45,037 nucleotides of DNA from Candidatus Stahliibacteriota bacterium (GCA_030602565.1 JAUVZL010000016.1:1-45037); one strand, 5' to 3'; shown: positions 22,376 through 41,798, counted from the stretch's first letter. Numbers and translations are program-made. The notes: a model not told the origin generated them from the sequence alone.

Positions 22376-23104
22376 CTAAACACCTAAATGCCTAAAAAAG
22401 CATATTTTAGGTGGTTTTCTCTTGTGTTCATTCTGTTCAATCCTAAATTTCAGCTTTTCAGCACAATTACCTTTGATTTGACTGCTTGAGATCTCCTGCA
22501 ATGTTCTATCGATCTCATCATATGAAAAGCCAATTTCGCCTTCATCAGTCTGTCCTTTCCAGAGACCTGCGCTTGGTGTCTTGTCTATGATCGTCTTGGG
22601 AACGTGAAGTACCTTGGCAAGCTCCCTTACTTCGAACTTATAGAGGTCACCAAACGGCAGAATATCGCAGGCACCATCACCATATTTTGTAAAGTAGCCA
22701 AGTGTTAACTCGGTTTTGTTCCCGGTGCCGCAGACGAGATAGTTATTGAGGTTTGCGTAGTAATAGAGAACGACCATTCTTAAGCGCGCTTTGATGTTGC
22801 CAAGGGCAACCTGATCACCTCCAGGTAGCAACTTCGTCAAATGACCGTAAACCGACGTCAAATCGATATACTCAGTCCGCACATTGAGCGCGTCTGCGAC
22901 CCTTGAAGCATCGTCTATATCTTGCACTTCTGATTCAATGGGCATGATCAATCCAAGACAGTTATCAGTGACTCTTTTCATGAGTGCCGCACACACTGCT
23001 GAATCCAAACCACCGCTCACCCCCAACACAAAACCCTTTGTCTGGGATTCATTCAATTGTTTTTTCAACCATGCAACGATTTGTGTAGTAACATCTTCCC
23101 TCAT
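22376..23104 (-). CDS. nadE: NH3-dependent NAD+ synthetase
   Basis: The 242-residue protein carries the N-type ATP pyrophosphatase loop GVSGGLDSAVCAAL near residue 28, and the later motifs CGTGNKTELTLGYFTKYGDGACDI and KTPSAGLWKGQTDEGEIG. It converts deamido-NAD to NAD using ammonia and ATP. The glutamine amidotransferase domain of the larger type is absent, hence the ammonia-dependent form. It is a single gene with its own promoter. Confidence 0.95.
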   Translation of the reverse strand: MREDVTTQIVAWLKKQLNESQTKGFVLGVSGGLDSAVCAALMKRVTDNCLGLIMPIESEVQDIDDASRVADALNVRTEYIDLTSVYGHLTKLLPGGDQVALGNIKARLRMVVLYYYANLNNYLVCGTGNKTELTLGYFTKYGDGACDILPFGDLYKFEVRELAKVLHVPKTIIDKTPSAGLWKGQTDEGEIGFSYDEIDRTLQEISSSQIKGNCAEKLKFRIEQNEHKRKPPKICFFRHLGV

Positions 23105-23142: not shown

Positions 23143-23556
23143 GAGTTACATATGTATATTTTTAAAATTTTGTGTAGTTGCCTCTACCTGAGGCAGACAG
23201 GTGATTTATCAGGTGTTTCCCAGCCCCTGTAGTTGCCTCTGCCTGAGGCAGACAGGCCTGCCTGTGCGTCGCACCTGTCTGCCCTGTCTGCGTCGCCAAC
23301 GCGACAGGCAGGCGTGCCAACGGTACAGGTAGACGCAGACAGGTGATTTACCCACGCCCCTTATGAAGGAGCGGGGTTTACCCACGCCCCTTATGAAGGA
23401 GCGGGGTTTACCCACGCCCCTTATGAAGGAGCGGGGTTTATCAGGCATCCTTCACTTCTCGAACACTATTTCGGTATTTCGCTAATTACCAAAATACCAA
23501 ATTGGCACACTAACGCAATTCTCATTAATCACAATATGTTTGTAGCGAAAATACAA
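23143..23556. repeat. Intergenic repeat block with triple 30-bp array
   Basis: No gene is supported. The sequence is built from tgcctctgcctgaggcagacagg-like palindromes (23170-23350) and the exact triple array at 23351-23440. The minus-strand frame across it simply repeats a ten-residue unit and is not a credible protein. Confidence 0.75.
23351..23440. repeat. Three exact tandem copies of a 30-bp unit
   Basis: Units at 23351-23380, 23381-23410 and 23411-23440 are identical, head to tail with no spacer. Single copies with the same flanks occur at 6434-6463 and, diverged, at 19418-19447. The absence of spacers rules out a CRISPR array. Slippage or unequal crossing-over of a single unit is the simplest origin. 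Confidence 0.9.
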
Positions 23557-23584
23557 TTGACATCAGGTTCTTATTCCATATAAT
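23557..23584 (+). promoter_or_regulatory. Promoter TTGACA-16-TATAAT for the restriction-modification operon
   Basis: TTGACA (23557-23562) and TATAAT (23579-23584) lie just before the ATG at 23592. The message is predicted to be leaderless or nearly so. Confidence 0.8.
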
Positions 23585-23591
23585 TCATTGA

Positions 23592-26500
23592 ATGAGTAAA
23601 GAGAAAAAATACTGGCAGATAAATACTGAAAAATTAGCACGAGACATTAAACAAGCAGCAAGGACTGCTAACACTGAAGAAGACCTCAAAATGAAAGTTG
23701 AGCCTTTACTGCAAAATGTATTTAAGAAAATTGGAGTAGATATTGACATCGTCCGATATGAAAAAACGAGCACATCTTATAGAGGTAGATCAGATGCAGT
23801 CTATGGTTATCTTACTATTGAGTACAAAACACCTGGCAAATTATCTGCAAAACCGAATGTTAAAAAAACAGTTAAGCAGCTTCAAAATTATCTTGTAGGA
23901 CAGGCTACACAGTTTGCTGAACAAAAGGAAGACTTTCTGGAAAAAGCAGTTGGTGTGGCATTAGACGGCGATTATATTCTTTTTGTAAGATTCACAAAAG
24001 TTCCCACAATATTACAGACACCAGTGCCTGTGCAAGAAAAGCAGGGCGCATTGTTCCCTGTAGCCAAAACAGGACGTGGTTTTCAGGTATTGGGTCCATA
24101 TTCAATTAGCCATTCAAGTTTAACTAATCTTTTAATATTTGTCCGGGCTTCAGCCAGGAGACCACTTACTGCAAAGGATTTAGCCACAGTGTTTGGACCT
24201 GACTGTTCTATTGCTCGGCAAGCAGTTTCTGAACTATACTCAGCAGCAATGAGGGCGCAACGCAGACAAACACCTTCTCGAATAAAGACTTTTTTCATAG
24301 AATGGGACAGAATTTTTGGTGTTGTTTATGGACAGGAACTCGAAAAGGCTGAAAAAACTGCAGAAGAAACTGCAAAGGTCTATCAATTACCAGCAGGGAG
24401 CAGATTAAAACAGCTCCTCTTTGCAATCCATACATATTATGCCTTTCTAATGAAACTCATTGCGTATGAACTCGTTGCTCTACAAAGGGAACAAACTGTT
24501 GAATCATTTGTGAAAGATATAGCACCATTGGATGATATGAAATTATTTGACAAACTCAGTCATTTGGAGAGTGGTCTCGATTTTGTCAATCAGGGGATCG
24601 AAAATTTCCTTGAGGCAGATTTTTTCTCATGGTATCTTGATGCCTGGACATCACAGCTTGCTAATGTCTTTCGTAGTATTGTTCGAGCATTCTCGGATTT
24701 TGAATCCGCCACGCCCATTCTTGAACCAGAGTGGACAAGGGATTTGCTGCAGAAATTATATGAGGTTATTGTTCCGCAGAAACTGCGCCATGACTTGGGA
24801 GAATATTATACCCCTGATTGGCTCGCAGGCTATGTAACAGATAAAAGCGGCTATGATGGTAGAATCGGTATTCGTTTCCTTGACCCTGCGTGCGGTTCAG
24901 GAACCTTTTTAGTACAGGCGATAAACAAAGTAATTGGATACGCAAAGGGACATAAGAAGATACAAACAAAAGAAGTTGCACAACATATCCTCAAGAATAT
25001 TGTGGGCTTTGATCTGAATCCGCTTGCTGTTTTAGCAGCACGTACAAACTATCTCATAGCGTTTTCCAGATTTATTCCATATGTAAGACCAATTACGATC
25101 CCGGTGTATCTTTGCGATTCTATTCTCGCACCAAGTCGGTACGAGGAGGAAGGTGAGTTGCCTTTCAATAGCAATACTTTGATCTTCACAACTACAAAAG
25201 GTAATTACATCTTTCCAATTTGCATGCAAGACAAAACACAAATTGATAAGTTCACTTCAGAGGTTGACATCGCATTACGGAGCAAATTAGTGCCAGAGCA
25301 ATTCAAAAGCAAACTCAAAATTGCGTTTAATCTTTCAGAGAAAGAAAACGAACTTCTTCTAAATATCTACGGACAAATAAAGAAATTAGATGACGCTGGT
25401 GAAAATGGAATCTGGGCGCGTTATATAAAGAATGCCTTTGCACCAGTGTATCTAGGTAAATTTGACTATGTAATCGGCAATCCACCCTGGATAAGATGGG
25501 ATTTCCTTTCTGATGATTATAGAGCAAGAACATTGAAATTATGGCAAAAATATGGACTTTTTTCTTTGAAAGGTTATGAAACACGATTAGGTGGAGGTAA
25601 AAAAGATTTCTCAATGTTATTCACATATGCCTGTGCTGATAATTATCTTAAAGATAAAGGAATTTTAGGGTTCGTCATTACCATGGAAGTGTTTAAATCC
25701 AAGGGTGCTGGAGAGGGATTTAGAAGATTTGAATTAAAAAACAAAAAAGAACCCCTCAAGATTATCAGCATGGAAGATATGGTGAATTTGAAACCATTTC
25801 AAGCAGCCAATAAAACATCCATATTCTGCTTGCAAAAAGGTAAAAAGACAACCTATCCACTCCCTGTTATTGAATGGAAAAGAAAAAAAGGAGTTGGACG
25901 TATTAAACCAGAATGGAGTTTGAATGACGTCCTGACAAATACTACAAAAAAGAAACTTAAAGCAATACCTATCAATCCTGAGAAACTTGCTTCAGCGTGG
26001 CAAACCGCATCGTCTGCAGATCTTCAAATTTATTCACAATTAAAAGGAAATAATCCATACAGAGCTTATAGTGGAGTATATGCTAGCCCTTATGGCGTAT
26101 TTTGGCTGAATGTGAAGGATGTTCGACCTGATGGAAAAATTGTTGTTGAAAACATGCATATGCGAGGGAAATGGCAAATAAAATCTGTATCACAATCTAT
26201 AGAGCCCAATTTAGTTTTCCCGGCAGTTTGCGGTAAGGATTTACGTAAATATGGTATAGCGAGTAATTTTGTTTTATTGGTCCCTCAGGAACCAATAAAA
26301 CAAAAACCTTATACTGCAGATTGGATGCTACAAAACACACCTCTTACCTATGCATATTTAAAACAATTTGAGAAAGTCTTAAATACTAGAGCATCACGTG
26401 CCCTGAAGGAACTTGCTGACAAGACTGAGTTCTACGCCATATTGGGAGTTGGTAAGTACACGTTTTCAAGATATAAAGTAGTCTGGAAACAAATGGGGAC

Positions 26501-26867
26501 AAAAATAGCAACAGTGGTTTTATCAAGTATGAAAACGAATTTTGGCATGAAATCTATAGTCTCAACACACACAACCGCACTATTTGCTACCGACAATAGA
26601 AAAGAAGCACATTACCTTTGTGCAATTTTAAACTCAGAAATTGTTAATAACTTTATAAAAAGTTTTTCAGCCGCAGGTAGGGGTTTTGGCACACCATCAG
26701 TTATGGAAAATCTTGCAATCCCTAAGTTCAAACTGAACAACAGAATTCACGAAAAACTCGCAGAGCTTTCTGAAAAGGCTCATGCTTTGGTCAAAAAAAG
26801 TAATGATATTCAAGATATACAAGATGAAATAAATTCAAATGTTTTGAGATTATGGAATATAAAGTAA
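23592..26867 (+). CDS. Single-chain type IIG/IIL-like restriction-modification enzyme
   Basis: The 1091-residue protein has an N-terminal PD-(D/E)XK-like nuclease region: D68 and E77-Y-K79 within GRSDAVYGYLTIEYKTPGKL, preceded by a helix containing E38. A helical linker follows. The N6-adenine methyltransferase core then has motif I FLDPACGSGTF (about 428-440) and motif IV NPPW (about 630). The C-terminal part resembles TaqI/Eco57I-type target recognition domains (KYTFSRYKVVWKQM). It would methylate and cut the same site as one polypeptide. The recognition site cannot be read from sequence. The next gene starts 16 bases before its stop. Confidence 0.85.
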   Translation: MSKEKKYWQINTEKLARDIKQAARTANTEEDLKMKVEPLLQNVFKKIGVDIDIVRYEKTSTSYRGRSDAVYGYLTIEYKTPGKLSAKPNVKKTVKQLQNYLVGQATQFAEQKEDFLEKAVGVALDGDYILFVRFTKVPTILQTPVPVQEKQGALFPVAKTGRGFQVLGPYSISHSSLTNLLIFVRASARRPLTAKDLATVFGPDCSIARQAVSELYSAAMRAQRRQTPSRIKTFFIEWDRIFGVVYGQELEKAEKTAEETAKVYQLPAGSRLKQLLFAIHTYYAFLMKLIAYELVALQREQTVESFVKDIAPLDDMKLFDKLSHLESGLDFVNQGIENFLEADFFSWYLDAWTSQLANVFRSIVRAFSDFESATPILEPEWTRDLLQKLYEVIVPQKLRHDLGEYYTPDWLAGYVTDKSGYDGRIGIRFLDPACGSGTFLVQAINKVIGYAKGHKKIQTKEVAQHILKNIVGFDLNPLAVLAARTNYLIAFSRFIPYVRPITIPVYLCDSILAPSRYEEEGELPFNSNTLIFTTTKGNYIFPICMQDKTQIDKFTSEVDIALRSKLVPEQFKSKLKIAFNLSEKENELLLNIYGQIKKLDDAGENGIWARYIKNAFAPVYLGKFDYVIGNPPWIRWDFLSDDYRARTLKLWQKYGLFSLKGYETRLGGGKKDFSMLFTYACADNYLKDKGILGFVITMEVFKSKGAGEGFRRFELKNKKEPLKIISMEDMVNLKPFQAANKTSIFCLQKGKKTTYPLPVIEWKRKKGVGRIKPEWSLNDVLTNTTKKKLKAIPINPEKLASAWQTASSADLQIYSQLKGNNPYRAYSGVYASPYGVFWLNVKDVRPDGKIVVENMHMRGKWQIKSVSQSIEPNLVFPAVCGKDLRKYGIASNFVLLVPQEPIKQKPYTADWMLQNTPLTYAYLKQFEKVLNTRASRALKELADKTEFYAILGVGKYTFSRYKVVWKQMGTKIATVVLSSMKTNFGMKSIVSTHTTALFATDNRKEAHYLCAILNSEIVNNFIKSFSAAGRGFGTPSVMENLAIPKFKLNNRIHEKLAELSEKAHALVKKSNDIQDIQDEINSNVLRLWNIK

Positions 26868-27670
26868 TAACTACACAGGATACCAAGTTTCCACGAAAGC
26901 TGATTGAACGGCTGGCCAATGAAGCTCCGGAAAGAATGTATTATCATGGTCTGCTGGAACTTCTCGACCACTGGACCATGGCATTTTTCTGCGCTGACGC
27001 TGCTGGTGGTACTGTGCTTAATGAAATGAACCAGCTTTTTTTCACAATTCGAGAATATGCAATCAATTATATTGGTTCCTGGCATTCAGTTATGGAAACC
27101 GAGGTGTTTAGATTGGGGTTGTATTTCAAGTACGATACTGTCACTCTATTTACTGCCAAGGGATTGGGTGTTGAAACATTTGATTCGTATCTGCTCGACC
27201 GATTCTATCCTCCGCTCCATGAGTTTCCGGAAAGAGATGAATATTTCAGACGTGCTAAAGAGAATGAGCTTCTTATGCTGTCAGCAGTCGCACCAGATGA
27301 AACAAGACAGAAACGAAAGAACATAATGCAGAGAAACTGGCTTTCTTGTATTCTTAGTAATCTGGTCTTTATACCATATGGACCAAAAGATTCAAAAACC
27401 TATACTACAGCAAAAAAGATTATCAATGCTAAAATTCCTGTCTTTACACTTGAGCATTCGATAGCAAATGACCTCCATAAACTTGGAATTCCTGGATTCA
27501 ATCGCAAAACTGTTCGAGCTTTTTTAGAAAAAATGGGTGCAAAAAAACCTGTTGAAAAAGAAAAGCCAGAAACAATTACACCAGAAGAAATCACCCCATA
27601 TAAATCATCAAAAAAAATAGTGCAGAATAAGATAAAGTTTTTAAAAGGCAAAAATGATGACGCAGAATAA
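26852..27670 (+). CDS. DprA/SLOG-like Rossmann protein in restriction-modification operon
   Basis: The 272-residue protein begins like DprA/Smf proteins (TKFPRKLIERLANEAPERMYYHG). It has GSWHSVMETEVFR at the place of the first nucleotide-binding turn, and RNWLSCILSNLVFIPYG...TYTTAKKII matching the second half of the DprA Rossmann fold. The C-terminal tail is lysine-rich and ends in a charged extension. It is shorter than true DprA, and its operon partner is a restriction-modification enzyme. A sensor or accessory role of the SLOG type in defence is therefore more likely than natural transformation. That role is inference. Confidence 0.6.
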   Translation: MEYKVITTQDTKFPRKLIERLANEAPERMYYHGLLELLDHWTMAFFCADAAGGTVLNEMNQLFFTIREYAINYIGSWHSVMETEVFRLGLYFKYDTVTLFTAKGLGVETFDSYLLDRFYPPLHEFPERDEYFRRAKENELLMLSAVAPDETRQKRKNIMQRNWLSCILSNLVFIPYGPKDSKTYTTAKKIINAKIPVFTLEHSIANDLHKLGIPGFNRKTVRAFLEKMGAKKPVEKEKPETITPEEITPYKSSKKIVQNKIKFLKGKNDDAE

Positions 27671-27702
27671 GAAATTCGTAAAAGTAAACAGTATCGATAG
27701 AA

Positions 27703-28434
27703 ATGAAAAATATATATAAATCCAAAAATTATTCCAACCTCATAACCGACCTTTCATCCTTAATTAACCAGGGCCGAAAGGCGGCAGTGCGGTATGTGAA
27801 TACCGCACTGGTCATTACTTACTGGCTCATTGGCAGACGGATTGTGGGATTTGAGCAGAAAGGGAAAAAACGGGCGGAGTATGGCGAAGCTCTTCTTGAA
27901 AAATTGTCTATTGACTTAACCCAGCGATTCGGTAAAGGATGGGGACTAACTAATTTGAAAACCATCAGACAATTCTATCTTACATATTCAAAGGTCATTC
28001 AAAAAGGTCACACACCGTGTGACCAATTGCCTTCCAGGAGTTCCCTGCGAAAAAGTCGCACAGTGTGTACCGAATTACAACCAATTTCCGAGACATTATC
28101 ACGGAAATTACTTTTATCGTGGTCTCATTATCGTCTTCTTATGCGTATTGATGAGTCTTTTAAACAAGATTTCTATGAGGCAGAGTGCATCCGTGGTAAC
28201 TGGTCAGTAAGACAACTGGATAGGCAAATCCAGTCAATGCTATATGAGCGGACTGCTCTTTCCAAACGTAAACTGGCAGTCATTGCCAAAGCTCATAAAA
28301 AGCCAATTATCCTCAAACCCGAAGACGAAATCAAGGATCCATATATTTTAGAATTTCTTGGCTTAAAAGATGAATATTCTGAATCGCAGTTAGAAGATGA
28401 GAATGAAAAACAAGGAATTGGCAAAACTATTTAA
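27703..28434 (+). CDS. DUF1016 N-terminal domain protein, lacking the usual nuclease domain
   Basis: The 243-residue product matches the DUF1016 N-terminal domain: TALVITYWLIGRRIV, RAEYGEALLEKLSIDLTQRFGKGW and LSWSHYRLLMRI. It continues to the conserved junction DPYILEFLGLKDEYSESQLE. At that point YhcG-type proteins continue into a PDDEXK nuclease of about 120 residues. Here the frame instead runs about a dozen residues into the polX start and stops. It is therefore an N-domain-only form, probably produced by deletion up to polX. The last codons overlap polX by 38 bases. Confidence 0.75.
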   Translation: MKNIYKSKNYSNLITDLSSLINQGRKAAVRYVNTALVITYWLIGRRIVGFEQKGKKRAEYGEALLEKLSIDLTQRFGKGWGLTNLKTIRQFYLTYSKVIQKGHTPCDQLPSRSSLRKSRTVCTELQPISETLSRKLLLSWSHYRLLMRIDESFKQDFYEAECIRGNWSVRQLDRQIQSMLYERTALSKRKLAVIAKAHKKPIILKPEDEIKDPYILEFLGLKDEYSESQLEDENEKQGIGKTI

Positions 28435-30142
28435 TCGCATTGCTGATGCATTAGAATTCAAAGACGTTAATGTTTTTCGTATTGTAGCATATCGCAGGGC
28501 GGGACGTGTTCTCGATGATCTTGTCGAGGACATTGAAGTGTTGAATAAACAAGGCAGACTTGCTGAGCTACCCGGCATTGGCAAGGCAATTGCTGAAAAG
28601 ATTAATGAATATCTCTCTACTGGCAAGATGAAAAAATATAAAGAGGTAACCAAAGGCATTCCAAATACTCTGCTCGACATGCTCGATATACAAAACCTCG
28701 GTCCAAAAACACTTGCATTGGCACATAAAAAACTGCGTGTAAAAAACTTAAAAGACCTGAAAAAGGTCATAAAAAATGGCAGCCTTGCAAAACTGCCACA
28801 AATGGGCAAAAAAAAGGTTGAAAATATTAAGAAAGGGTTAGACCTGTATGAACGAGCTCATGAGAGACTTTCTATTGCAGTTGCGCAAAATGTAGCACGC
28901 GAGATTATTGAATATCTAAAAAAGAATACCAAAATAAAAGATATCTCGTCAGCCGGGTCTTTACGCAGATGGAAAGAGACAATCGGAGACATTGATATTC
29001 TTACTACTGGAAAAAATGGAGCAGAAATTATCAAAATATTCACAAAGTTTCCCAAAACCGAACGGGTACTTGCTGCCGGTGAAACAAAGAGCTCAATAAT
29101 TGTTAAAGGCGGAATCCAGGTCGATTTGAGGATTGTCAAACCAAAATCTTATGGCGCTGCACTCCAGTATTTTACTGGTTCAAAGGCGCACAATATTAAG
29201 CTGCGTAATATTGCCAAATCAAAGGGATTGAAATTGAGTGAATATGGTGTATTCTCTCTACGAGATACAGGCGTAAAAGGTAAAAAAATGGTTGCCGGTA
29301 AGACAGAAAAAGAAGTTTACAAAATCCTTGGTCTAACATATGTTCCGCCAGAATTGCGTGAAGATCGTGGTGAAGTTGAGGTAGCGCTCCAGAATAAAAT
29401 ACCAAAGCTCATTGAAATGAAAGACATCAAAGGTGATTTGCACATGCATTCGACATATTCAGATTCTACAGCTACTATTAGACAACTCACAAATTTTGCC
29501 TGGAGACTTAATTATGAATATATCCTGGTAACTGACCATTCAGAATCTGCAAAATATGCCCATGGACTGGAACCGAAAAGGTTATATAAACAGTGGCAGG
29601 AGATTGATAAAATTAACCAACAATCCAAAAAATTGCACGTATTAAAGGGTGTTGAGGTTGACATTCTAAAAAGTGGTAAACTGGATTATCCTGATAAAAT
29701 TTTGAAACGATGTGATTTTGTTATCGCTGCAATTCACCAAGGTTTTACAAAGAATGTTACAGAAAGAATCTACGCGGCAATGGATAACCCTTATGTGGAT
29801 ATTATCGCTCATCCGACTGGAAGACTCATCTCACAACGAGAGGGGTATGCTATCAACATCCACAAGGTCATGGAGCACGCAGCTCAAACTGGTACCTGGC
29901 TGGAGCTCAATGCCTACCCGGATAGATTAGATGTGAATGATGTATATTTAAAGATTGCAAAGGAGATGGATATAAAAATTTCAATCGGCACTGATGCCCA
30001 TAGTATCAAGGCTCTTTTATGGATGAAGTTCGGTGTTGCTCAGGCACGCCGCGGTTGGCTTGAAGCAAAGAATGTAGTAAATACTTATTCACTGAAAAAG
30101 TTACAGACAATCAGGAAAATAAATAAAAACAGGATTGAATAG
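28397..30142 (+). CDS. polX: DNA polymerase/3'-5' exonuclease PolX
   Basis: The 581-residue protein has helix-hairpin-helix motifs (LPGIGKAIAEKINEYL; LPQMGKKKVENIK). The family X polymerase core has SAGSLRRWKETIGDIDIL (about 185-202) with the metal aspartates D198 and D200 and a third in QVDLRIV. The C-terminal PHP phosphoesterase domain starts at DLHMHSTYSD (about 346). PolX fills short gaps and removes mismatched ends during base-excision or end-joining repair. It is full length, and its start is inside the DUF1016 gene. Its place as the last gene of a restriction-modification operon is unusual. Confidence 0.93.
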   Translation: MRMKNKELAKLFNRIADALEFKDVNVFRIVAYRRAGRVLDDLVEDIEVLNKQGRLAELPGIGKAIAEKINEYLSTGKMKKYKEVTKGIPNTLLDMLDIQNLGPKTLALAHKKLRVKNLKDLKKVIKNGSLAKLPQMGKKKVENIKKGLDLYERAHERLSIAVAQNVAREIIEYLKKNTKIKDISSAGSLRRWKETIGDIDILTTGKNGAEIIKIFTKFPKTERVLAAGETKSSIIVKGGIQVDLRIVKPKSYGAALQYFTGSKAHNIKLRNIAKSKGLKLSEYGVFSLRDTGVKGKKMVAGKTEKEVYKILGLTYVPPELREDRGEVEVALQNKIPKLIEMKDIKGDLHMHSTYSDSTATIRQLTNFAWRLNYEYILVTDHSESAKYAHGLEPKRLYKQWQEIDKINQQSKKLHVLKGVEVDILKSGKLDYPDKILKRCDFVIAAIHQGFTKNVTERIYAAMDNPYVDIIAHPTGRLISQREGYAINIHKVMEHAAQTGTWLELNAYPDRLDVNDVYLKIAKEMDIKISIGTDAHSIKALLWMKFGVAQARRGWLEAKNVVNTYSLKKLQTIRKINKNRIE

Positions 30143-30311: not shown

Positions 30312-32483
30312 TTACTTGTTGAGTCTATCTAGTATTTCTTCGGCAGTTGCCGCAACAAATTGATCTTTATGATTGGTCGCTTCACGTAAAGCTCCCATTG
30401 TTTTTTCACTACCTATCTTTGCCAAGCTATTGAGGACTGCGCGTTTTGTTGGGTGCAGGAGATCAGCTTTGAAAATCGGGCGTTCGCTCAAAATCGCGAC
30501 TAATAGTTCGAGCACTGAGTCGTCACCAAAGCGTCCCAGGACACCGATTATCTCCTGTCTGAACTGCTCTTCTTTGATATCTGGGATGCCCTTACGGGAT
30601 TTCAACCATCCTGCCACTTCGGTAAGCTTATCCAGCACGTCCTCCTTTTCCAGGTGTTTCATCGCCGCAATAACCACCTTATTGTACTTGCTTTGCAGTC
30701 CTTTAAGAAGATAGGATTTTATGTTTTCGCTACCAGTTTTCATGAGACTATCGATGACTGCTAATTGCACCTGCTCTTCGTCGTCATTTATTAACGGACC
30801 GATTCTATCAATCACTACACTTGTTTTCATTTCACCCAAGATAAAAATGCCGTTTCTGCGGATGTACCATTCCGATGAGTCGAGAAGCTTCTGAACTTCG
30901 GGCACTGCACGTTCACCCATTTTAATGATTACATCGATGATCTTCATTCTCACGGCTCGGTTCTCAGTTTCATTTAATGCTGCAATAAGTACTGGCATTG
31001 AAAACTCAGCCAACGAAATGAGTGCCGCGCGTGCTTCGACAAAGGTTCCAGGATCCCAAAGTAGCGAGACCAGCTCAGGCACATAGTTTTCATCTTTGAT
31101 CTCATTAATCGTGCGAATCACCGTCTTCTTTCTTTCCAGTAATGCTGTATCTTTTCTCAACAAGTGCTTGCCGAATTTCTTTGAGATAAATTGTATCATA
31201 TCATCTTGCTTCAATGCTTTTGCTTTCAAGTAAATATTTTCGAGTGCGCTGATCACGCTGACAAAAGTCTTCAATTCTGTTTCCGCATCAGCCATTGTGT
31301 CAAAGCGATCAACGAGAAGTCTGAGCACATCGTAATTCTTTGATTCAAAAATCCGGTCCTGGAACCCCATGAGATCTTCAACTGCCTTAATACGTTCATC
31401 ACGTGATGAATCACGCAAGCGCGGAAAAATCAACCTCATTTCTTGTTCCATATTTTTACTCATGAATTTATCCGCCGCCTTCTTTCCTTTAACAGTTTTC
31501 AACTCACTCATTAAACGTGAAGCAATTTTTTCAAAATCCAATTCTGGCACATTTACTCTTAAGGTAGACAGGATGCCAGGCAATCTTGAACCCGTAACAT
31601 TCTTCAAAATATCAACAATCTCTTGCTCGACCCGAGGTGACCTCTCTTTCGCCTTCACTGAAACGACGTCAATGATGTCCTCGTCAGACATTGTCGGTAT
31701 CAAACTTTTGAAGAGAACAGCTAGTTTCTTGTTCTCGGTGCGATACTTGGCAATATTCTTTTTTATGGTTGGTGACAGAACAGACAGCATTCGCGAGAAC
31801 ACTATCGAGTATTCATCCCACCGATCTTCACCATACTGGTCGGCAACCATGAGGGCTAATTTCTCAAGACCTGAGACAATTTTCCCTGTCTGCACCTCTA
31901 TCGGCTCACTGCCACCAATGCCAATCCCCGCCAGGAAACCGCTAAGCTCCTTTACCTTATCGTCGTCACTCATTGCGATCTGACCCGTAGTCAAAGATTC
32001 TAAAAACTGATCCCAATTTATCGACTGTGCTCCAGCATCACTCGATATTACACCCACACGAAATTTGTTAACTGTAATTCTGGTGACGCCTCGCGCTCTC
32101 AGTAAAGCAACGATATCACCATAATCAGCGATATCAGCAGGCGTGGCGGCCATTGCATTGAAGAACTCCTGGAGATCCTCCTCGGTTTGCTGAACACTAA
32201 AGGTTATACTTTTAACGCCCAATTGACTAAATCTGTTCACCAGACTCTTCACGATCGGCAACCGCTTTGAATCAAAGCGTTCTTCCCCAATCATTATTAT
32301 ACCTTCAACGATCACCAAGGAAATCGTCTCCTGCTCTATCGGTACTTCTCTGAGCAATATTCTCAAGCGTTTTACAATTGGTATCAATGAAGGATGCCCC
32401 TTTGGATATGTTTTGGATATATTGGCACCCAACCCAATCTGTTTGATCAAATCATTGAGGAATTTCATTGAATAATCTGCCAT
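30312..32483 (-). CDS. HEAT-repeat protein
   Basis: The 723-residue soluble protein has an N-terminal alpha/beta region (YPKGHPSLIPIVKRL, then GVKSITFSVQQTEEDLQEFF). This resembles the domain that precedes HD or HEAT domains in other bacterial signalling proteins. The C-terminal half carries HEAT-type repeats (for example AVPEVQKLLDSSEWYIRRNGIFILGEM; about residues 470-720). It has no catalytic motif. It is the third gene of a cyclase operon, two bases behind the 214-residue cyclase protein, so a protein-binding or effector role downstream of the cyclase proteins is plausible. Confidence 0.8.
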   Translation of the reverse strand: MADYSMKFLNDLIKQIGLGANISKTYPKGHPSLIPIVKRLRILLREVPIEQETISLVIVEGIIMIGEERFDSKRLPIVKSLVNRFSQLGVKSITFSVQQTEEDLQEFFNAMAATPADIADYGDIVALLRARGVTRITVNKFRVGVISSDAGAQSINWDQFLESLTTGQIAMSDDDKVKELSGFLAGIGIGGSEPIEVQTGKIVSGLEKLALMVADQYGEDRWDEYSIVFSRMLSVLSPTIKKNIAKYRTENKKLAVLFKSLIPTMSDEDIIDVVSVKAKERSPRVEQEIVDILKNVTGSRLPGILSTLRVNVPELDFEKIASRLMSELKTVKGKKAADKFMSKNMEQEMRLIFPRLRDSSRDERIKAVEDLMGFQDRIFESKNYDVLRLLVDRFDTMADAETELKTFVSVISALENIYLKAKALKQDDMIQFISKKFGKHLLRKDTALLERKKTVIRTINEIKDENYVPELVSLLWDPGTFVEARAALISLAEFSMPVLIAALNETENRAVRMKIIDVIIKMGERAVPEVQKLLDSSEWYIRRNGIFILGEMKTSVVIDRIGPLINDDEEQVQLAVIDSLMKTGSENIKSYLLKGLQSKYNKVVIAAMKHLEKEDVLDKLTEVAGWLKSRKGIPDIKEEQFRQEIIGVLGRFGDDSVLELLVAILSERPIFKADLLHPTKRAVLNSLAKIGSEKTMGALREATNHKDQFVAATAEEILDRLNK

Positions 32484-41345: not shown

Positions 41346-41798
41346 ATCCTGGGAGCCAAAAACAGTCAGGGATTCGGTATGATTGAACAATGGAACCGTC
41401 CATCTTCTTCCTTCTCTTGATGCCTGTCTACCTCAGGAGGAGAGGGAAATGCCTGCCCTGTCTTTGGAGTGCAATGTGTCCTCACATTGCAATAAAAAGA
41501 AAATGTAGTCGCCCAATTCATTGGGCTTAAAAAAGGTTTTTGGAGTGCAATGTGTCCTCACATTGCAATAAAAAGAAGATGTAGTTGCCCAATTCATTGG
41601 GCTTGAAAAAGGGTGTTATGGAGTGCGACGAGTCTCTCGTTGCGAGAATCGTCGCAAAGAAAGGAGTCTAAATGTCAAAGATAGGTCGAGAGAACACCAG
41701 CTGAACTATCAAAAGAAATAGGCGTTTCCTTAACTACCATCTCTGAAGTCCTGCATGATTTACGCTGAGAATCACGAGATTTTGATCTCACAAAGAGT
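41346..41798. repeat. Tandem hairpin repeats and HTH remnant upstream of the RES module
   Basis: No intact gene is present. Two near-identical units of 76 bp start at 41465 and 41541, and a diverged third unit starts at 41619. Each full unit holds two hairpins, gcaatgtgtcctcacattgc and gcccaattcattgggc, with tggagtg and tgtagt flanks. The 41685-41768 stretch is a helix-turn-helix remnant. Confidence 0.8.
41685..41768 (+). pseudogene. Helix-turn-helix fragment
   Basis: An open stretch with no start codon reads TPAELSKEIGVSLTTISEVL, a clear DNA-recognition helix-turn-helix, then stops after HDLR. The N-terminal part of the regulator is missing. It is probably what is left of a MarR- or ArsR-like gene. 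No function is expected. Confidence 0.5.

Follow-up and report, generated by a model that had tools for sequence, protein, structure and literature searches.

Gene content of the locus

We analysed a stretch of DNA of 45,037 nucleotides from Candidatus Stahliibacteriota bacterium (GCA_030602565.1 JAUVZL010000016.1:1-45037), called the window below, which is one whole contig (C67) within a genome bin of 2.7 Mb. At positions 23,592 to 30,142 it carries four genes on the plus strand, the first two of which encode a type IIG restriction-modification (R-M) enzyme and a DprA-like protein of the SLOG family (the IIG-SLOG pair). We found that this pair recurs as a unit in other genomes, and that the two genes which follow it are almost certainly bystanders. 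A sequence-only reading of the same DNA had described four genes on one strand behind one consensus promoter, three of which overlap or nearly do, naming their products as a type IIG-like enzyme, a DprA/SLOG-like protein, a DUF1016 N-domain and PolX. The coordinates and the promoter are confirmed, and profile matches bear out the four names:

23557..23584, plus strand: promoter TTGACA-16-TATAAT, 12/12 consensus matches, top-scoring site of the region
23592..26867, plus strand: gene 1, type IIG R-M enzyme, 1091 aa (PADLOC PDLC03630 REase_MTase_IIG, 884 bits; Pfam Eco57I, N6_Mtase)
26852..27670, plus strand: gene 2, DprA-fold SLOG protein, 272 aa (DNA_processg_A, 30.6 bits, cut-off 29.6), with a 16-bp overlap with gene 1
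27703..28434, plus strand: gene 3, DUF1016 N-terminal-domain fragment, 243 aa (DUF1016_N, 139.9 bits), after a 32-bp gap from gene 2
28397..30142, plus strand: gene 4, polX, 581 aa (PolX NF006375, 550.6 bits), with a 38-bp overlap with gene 3

The -10 box ends 7 bp ahead of the ATG of the IIG gene, and this geometry suggests that the IIG mRNA is probably leaderless.

The IIG-SLOG pair recurs and co-diverges

A scan of GTDB-representative genomes returned 19 relatives of the DprA-like protein, in records of Stahlbacteria/WOR-3, KSB1, Neomarinimicrobiota, Cloacimonadota, Desulfobacteraceae and Deltaproteobacteria, Nitrospirae, Nitrospinota, Desantisbacteria and Planctomycetota; extra copies of the pair came from samples of Nitrospirota and Desulfobacterota. 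The pair spans about nine phyla and is rare and patchy, with 7 convincing copies in the 147 genomes of its own phylum, 4 strong ones in the 345 genomes of the Nitrospirota sample and 7 in the 395 of the Desulfobacterota sample. No matches to it were found in plasmid, phage and viral-contig sets.

With one exception (L049, see below), every locus whose upstream DNA could be read and is intact has the IIG gene directly upstream of the SLOG gene. The two genes overlap by exactly 16 bp at 15 of 16 junctions and by 19 bp at the remaining one. The paired IIG enzymes are approximately 51-87% identical to that of the window, and the distances between IIG enzymes correlate with those between SLOG proteins (Mantel r 0.89, p 2e-4). 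The type IIG enzyme and the DprA-like protein form a real two-gene unit. Since the pair recurs with its 16-bp overlap and co-diverges, it is reasonable to suppose that the nuclease is the object or the beneficiary of what the DprA-like protein does. The sequence-only reading had proposed that this protein could sense or regulate the nuclease: that the two belong together now has the support of recurrence, overlap and co-divergence, which makes the idea a reasonable one, while sensing or regulation as such stays conjectural. In one genome (L054), the IIG gene is reduced to its C-terminal end, downstream of a transposase gene.

The combination had also been called none that matches a described system. 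For the pair this stands as far as our search went, since we found no description of it in the open-access literature, judged by titles, abstracts and passages (subscription literature lay outside the search); the four genes are not one system. On the same basis, no R-M component tethered to the sliding clamp of replication was found described. We describe the pair as a type IIG R-M system with a DprA-fold accessory protein which is probably clamp-bound.

The type IIG enzyme

The catalytic motifs of the enzyme are intact and conserved:

23793..23828, plus strand: PD-(D/E)XK nuclease motif D68...E77-Y-K79 (D-x(8)-E-Y-K in 15/15 aligned SLOG-paired enzymes)
24864..24926, plus strand: methyltransferase motif I, DPACGSGTF (alignment of paired enzymes)
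25479..25490, plus strand: catalytic NPPW of a gamma-class N6-adenine methyltransferase (alignment of paired enzymes)
26229..26678, plus strand: TaqI_C-like target recognition domain, residues 880-1029 (E 5e-5, slightly under the Pfam cut-off)

Cutting at a fixed distance and methylation of the site are the activities predicted for such a type IIG enzyme. When the enzyme of the window is compared with the copy from the same genus, residues 1-700 are 89-100% identical, mostly 97%, and residues 801-1000, which comprise much of the recognition domain, are the most variable region, with 59-64% identity. Since the recognition region has diverged while the N-terminal part is nearly identical, we take this as a sign of a change in specificity, as would be expected for an active R-M enzyme. 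No companion methyltransferase gene was seen beside the pair in the loci read. As there is a single target recognition domain and no such companion, the enzyme probably methylates one strand only, by analogy with IIG/IIL enzymes.

The enzyme resembles those of the Eco57I/MmeI type in its N-terminal PD-ExK nuclease, its gamma-class N6-methyladenine methyltransferase core and its one C-terminal recognition domain, all in a single chain. It differs from them by its overlapping, obligatory-looking DprA-fold partner and its habit of lying in housekeeping operons, and the pair lacks the companion methyltransferase that goes with Eco57I. Membership in BREX or MADS was rejected, the scores being 37 bits against 400 for full-length PglX and 33 against 720 for MAD.

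Among the solitary IIG relatives, L117-L121, L123 and L126 have E-Y-E in place of E-Y-K in the nuclease motif. A strict tie between E-Y-K and the presence of a SLOG gene was considered and dropped, as the solitary enzymes of L124, L125 and L127 also have E-Y-K. The solitary genes of L119 and L120 are placed after a small gene which reads like an XRE/helix-turn-helix regulator.

The DprA-like protein and its C-terminal tail

The AlphaFold2 model of the SLOG protein has a predicted local distance difference test score (pLDDT) of 84.6. Its best Foldseek matches include the DprA of S. pneumoniae (3uqz, E 7e-13) and, at rank four, ShosA (8zva), and it shares with DprA the fold and the RN signature region. 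Used as a query against the sequences of solved structures, it gave no match. We rejected the possibility that it is the host's own DprA: it scores 27.8 bits on the DprA equivalog, far under the cut-off of 191.15, and the true DprA of the genome is encoded on contig C53. Unlike DprA, it has no folded C-terminal domain, and ends instead in a tail (residues 237-272) of very low model confidence, which is consistent with disorder. This tail is poorly conserved except for one motif:

27623..27640, plus strand: QNKIKF, residues 258-263, candidate beta-clamp-binding motif (tail motif count in homologues)

All 26 tails of DprA-like homologues contain the pattern Qxx[LIMF](x)[FLY], whereas shuffling each tail gives an expectation of 2.98; this contrast is not a probability, as the homologues are mutually related. 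The motif is mostly a hexamer (QNKIKF, QTELNF, QIKLKF) and in three cases a pentamer (QAKLF, QRELF, QLDLL); in six homologues it forms the last residues of the protein. According to passages of PMC11139829, motifs that bind the beta sliding clamp follow Q-aliphatic-x-[L/M]-(x)-[F/L], with a tolerant second position, and passages of the same article and of PMC4549789 place them often in C-terminal tails. In form and placement our motif resembles them, and it resembles likewise the short Qxx[L]x[F] or QxxLF motifs in the disordered tails of clamp-tethered proteins such as Pol II, Pol IV, Hda and insertion-sequence transposases, to which parts of both articles refer; unlike these, the SLOG tails are mostly relaxed matches. 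We consider it rather probable that the SLOG protein binds the beta clamp by its tail. This is kept as a prediction because only about 6 of the 26 motifs agree with the strict consensus, which has an aliphatic second residue.

DprA-like proteins are also found in a defence context in ShosTA and PsyrTA, and the SLOG protein gives weak matches to the PsyrA and ShosA profiles. Here, however, the partner is a type IIG enzyme and not a cognate toxin, and the full profiles of those systems are unmatched.

The pair lies repeatedly within housekeeping operons

The gene neighbours of the pair vary from one genome to another (their names are those of NCBIfam, except for the aminotransferase, which was read from the sequence). 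Twice the pair interrupts V-ATPase genes, separating that of subunit E from that of subunit C in L050 and from that of subunit A in L059. In two phyla it reaches the opening codons of accC (L052, L053); elsewhere it lies ahead of kdsC (L057), between yggS and proC (L058), ahead of a radical-SAM gene (L062) and ahead of an aminotransferase gene (L146). In all these operons it is codirectional and tightly spaced. At polX and accC, the SLOG gene runs into the target gene in a different reading frame and stops within its first codons.

Three of the sites, polX, V-ATPase E|C and yggS|proC, also occur without the pair. In L156 and L159-L163 the genes for V-ATPase E and C are neighbours, abutting or overlapping, with no pair between them; the same holds for yggS and proC, which abut or overlap in L173, L177, L178, L180, L183 and L184. 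A chimeric assembly is an unlikely cause of this embedding, since two unrelated genomes have V-ATPase genes to either side of the pair, and in a third it is flanked by yggS and proC.

Of 17 paired lineages, approximately 10 have a codirectional gene within about 35 bp; of about 11 solitary IIG genes, 3-4 do, so that the excess is weak. Five copies of the pair (L051, L055, L056, L060, L064) show no such embedding. Since several copies are unembedded and the excess over solitary enzymes is modest, we claim no dedicated insertion mechanism; the argument from embedding rests on the named operons and on the pair-free sites. Most simply, the cassette would rely on transcription of the host operon, or at least tolerate it, and insertions would survive only if they spare the downstream gene. 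In L052 and L053 the pair has the same position before accC and the same 8-bp overlap, the accC products being 78% and the SLOG proteins 76% identical; either the whole block has moved or the site was hit twice.

The pair shares with mobile R-M systems, as parts of the work of Kobayashi and colleagues (PMC3874152) present them, variable sites and an empty site in relatives. It differs from them by its repeated location between genes of essential operons, often with overlapping starts and stops, and no terminal inverted repeats were noticed.

polX and the DUF1016 fragment

The two remaining genes of the locus play almost certainly no part in the unit. The sequence-only reading had tied polX to the R-M genes and had suggested that PolX could repair breaks made by self-cutting or in invading DNA. 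polX was found in 50 of the 61 relatives searched, and in most genomes of the family it lies directly beside the divergent gene nadE, with nothing between them (L067, L068, L069, L079, L081 and others). In most of the relatives fetched, polX is thus at the nadE|polX site without R-M genes, and in other phyla the pair stands beside other genes; for the repair of breaks, genomic support amounts to position and nothing beyond. Hence polX is a housekeeping landing place and not a component, and its link with the pair is an accident of landing, because the pair lodges in unrelated housekeeping operons. The start of polX is probably the second ATG, at 28403, which gives the N-terminus typical of the family (MKNKEL...).

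At pair-free sites polX has a promoter CTTGATT-N16-GATAAT at 5-7 bp from the ATG, the same geometry as that of the IIG promoter. A derivation of the IIG promoter from that of polX was considered: the geometry fits, and the sequence is too short to decide. The arrangement CTTGATT-N16-GATAAT-N5-7-ATG before polX is common to the relatives L067-L079, which suggests that leaderless transcripts are common in this lineage. In L067 (G092, genus g11), polX is 88% identical to that of the window, the flanking nadE being 72% and the downstream gene 66% identical, which is ordinary for the distance; polX has apparently passed from one genus to another at the nadE|polX site.

Gene 3 was tried as a DUF1016/YhcG nuclease (PDC-S02), which has a C-terminal PD-DEXK YhcG_C domain, and was rejected: only residues 208-233 match the first 27 positions of YhcG_C, under the cut-off. 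Its final codons run out of frame into polX. The gene does not occur in G080 (same genus) or G075 (another genus), both of which have the order IIG-SLOG-polX, nor in G071, in which a contig starting inside the SLOG gene shows SLOG-polX. Since these three genomes are without it, the DUF1016_N gene is a later insertion and not part of the unit.

A second DUF1016-like fragment lies near the left end of the contig, at 1744-2106 on the minus strand (tblastn E 2e-8, with the G145 protein as query). G145 itself has a full-length DUF1016 gene of 380 aa just upstream of its pair (L056, 777-1919). The pair and DUF1016 have therefore come together on at least two occasions, in differing arrangements.

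Proposed mechanism and alternatives

Pairing, co-divergence, the DprA fold, intact catalytic motifs, the conserved tail motif and embedding in operons are all directly supported, and our best explanation of them, which we hold tentatively and at somewhat less than an even chance, is that of a two-protein R-M unit in which a clamp-coupled DprA-like protein protects nascent host DNA. The pair would be a compact cassette using whichever promoter and operon of the host receives it. The IIG enzyme would cut unmethylated target sites and methylate those of the host; marking on one strand would leave one daughter duplex unmarked at each round of replication. The DprA-like protein, co-translated with the enzyme through the 16-bp overlap, would grip the beta sliding clamp by its disordered tail, sit on freshly replicated host DNA, and there recruit or restrain the enzyme so that methylation is favoured over cutting, incoming DNA being cut and nascent host DNA spared. 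The combination of one-strand methylation with protection coupled to replication is possible, and likelier wrong than right. A bolder form is in our opinion unlikely: that the clamp, and not methylation, identifies new host DNA through a DprA-like adaptor of a one-strand IIG enzyme, in a unit which spreads as a promoter-using cassette by inserting between genes of essential operons.

A passage of PMC3874165 holds that IIG enzymes which rely on one-strand marks could not tell infecting from newly replicated DNA, and calls such reliance "astonishing". How a lone one-strand enzyme avoids cutting new host DNA is an acknowledged puzzle in that same passage, and a partner with a conserved clamp motif touches upon it. 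If the proposal is true, restriction is tied to the replication machinery; the bolder form would be a novel way for restriction to tell self from non-self. The embedding in the V-ATPase, accC and proC operons is moreover a natural source of data on the movement and survival of R-M genes.

Several observations weigh against this best explanation: besides the small number of strictly consensual tails and the kinship of the tails that were counted, one genome has an intact SLOG gene with the tail motif QTKLKF and no IIG gene beside it (L049, 10001-10831), and more distant IIG enzymes from the same phylum, at most 47% identical, do without a SLOG partner and without an obvious companion methyltransferase. 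The genome of L049 has no related IIG gene, only weak methyltransferase matches; this solitary SLOG gene could reveal whether the protein functions independently of the enzyme.

The same pairing, fold and tail motif would also fit a restriction effector, in which the DprA-like protein, placed on the clamps or single-stranded gaps of replicating invader DNA, brings or switches on the IIG nuclease instead of protecting the host. Relatives of DprA bind single-stranded DNA (as stated in the titles of H. pylori DprA structure entries among the Foldseek matches), and DprA-like domains are present in the defence proteins ShosA and PsyrA. However, host DNA has the same clamps, so that binding to them does not by itself mark out an invader, and the sequence offers nothing that separates activation from protection; we regard this role as rather doubtful. 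Alternatively, since R-M enzymes can damage their own host, the DprA-like protein might have kept the role of DprA as a loader of RecA on single-stranded DNA and mend, guided by the clamp, the breaks made by the IIG enzyme. Its closest fold is indeed that of DprA, from which likeness both RecA loading and binding of single-stranded DNA are hypothetical; but the low score on the equivalog and the presence of a true DprA in the genome make a repair helper improbable.

It can also be imagined that a cut by the IIG enzyme and a clamp-bound DprA-like protein drive the insertion of the pair at gene starts through break repair, in the manner of homing elements or of clamp-binding transposases. The precision with which the pair is placed at the start codons of unrelated genes, SLOG ending inside the first codons of polX and accC, argues in this direction, as do passages reporting that transposases use C-terminal clamp motifs (PMC4549789) and that R-M systems move, some with target duplications (PMC3874152). 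However, the junctions that we read showed neither terminal repeats nor target duplications, for which no systematic search was made; matches are few (4/345, 7/395), with one copy per genome and none in the plasmid, phage and viral-contig sets; and ordinary transfer followed by selection for copies inside operons gives the same picture. We therefore consider such self-driven mobility quite improbable. Finally, the defence operon of four genes put forward in the sequence-only reading, with PolX mending breaks and DUF1016 taking part, has for it the single promoter and the tight spacing on this contig, and the fact that at least two genera of the family retain IIG-SLOG-polX. A search for the same order found it on this contig only; DUF1016 is present here alone, and truncated, polX usually goes without the pair, and the pair has other neighbours elsewhere. 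That proposal is largely refuted and has hardly any chance of being right.

Flanking and other features of the window

The insertion site is bounded by two genes on the minus strand:

22376..23104, minus strand: nadE, left flank of the insertion site (NAD_synthase match), neighbour of polX in relatives too
30312..32483, minus strand: conserved 723-aa protein, right flank, adjoining polX in L010, L011, L067, L069, L079 and L081

The 723-aa protein presumably has HEAT-like repeats, a name which we read off its sequence. The region between nadE and the IIG gene contains, at 23347-23440, three perfect tandem copies of a 30-bp unit (TTTACCCACGCCCCTTATGAAGGAGCGGGG) beside a stretch rich in short repeats; these copies were not seen in the same form in the sister genome. 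Another tandem repeat, of 76 bp, lies at 41463-41626 of the window, with 2.1 copies and 93% matches.

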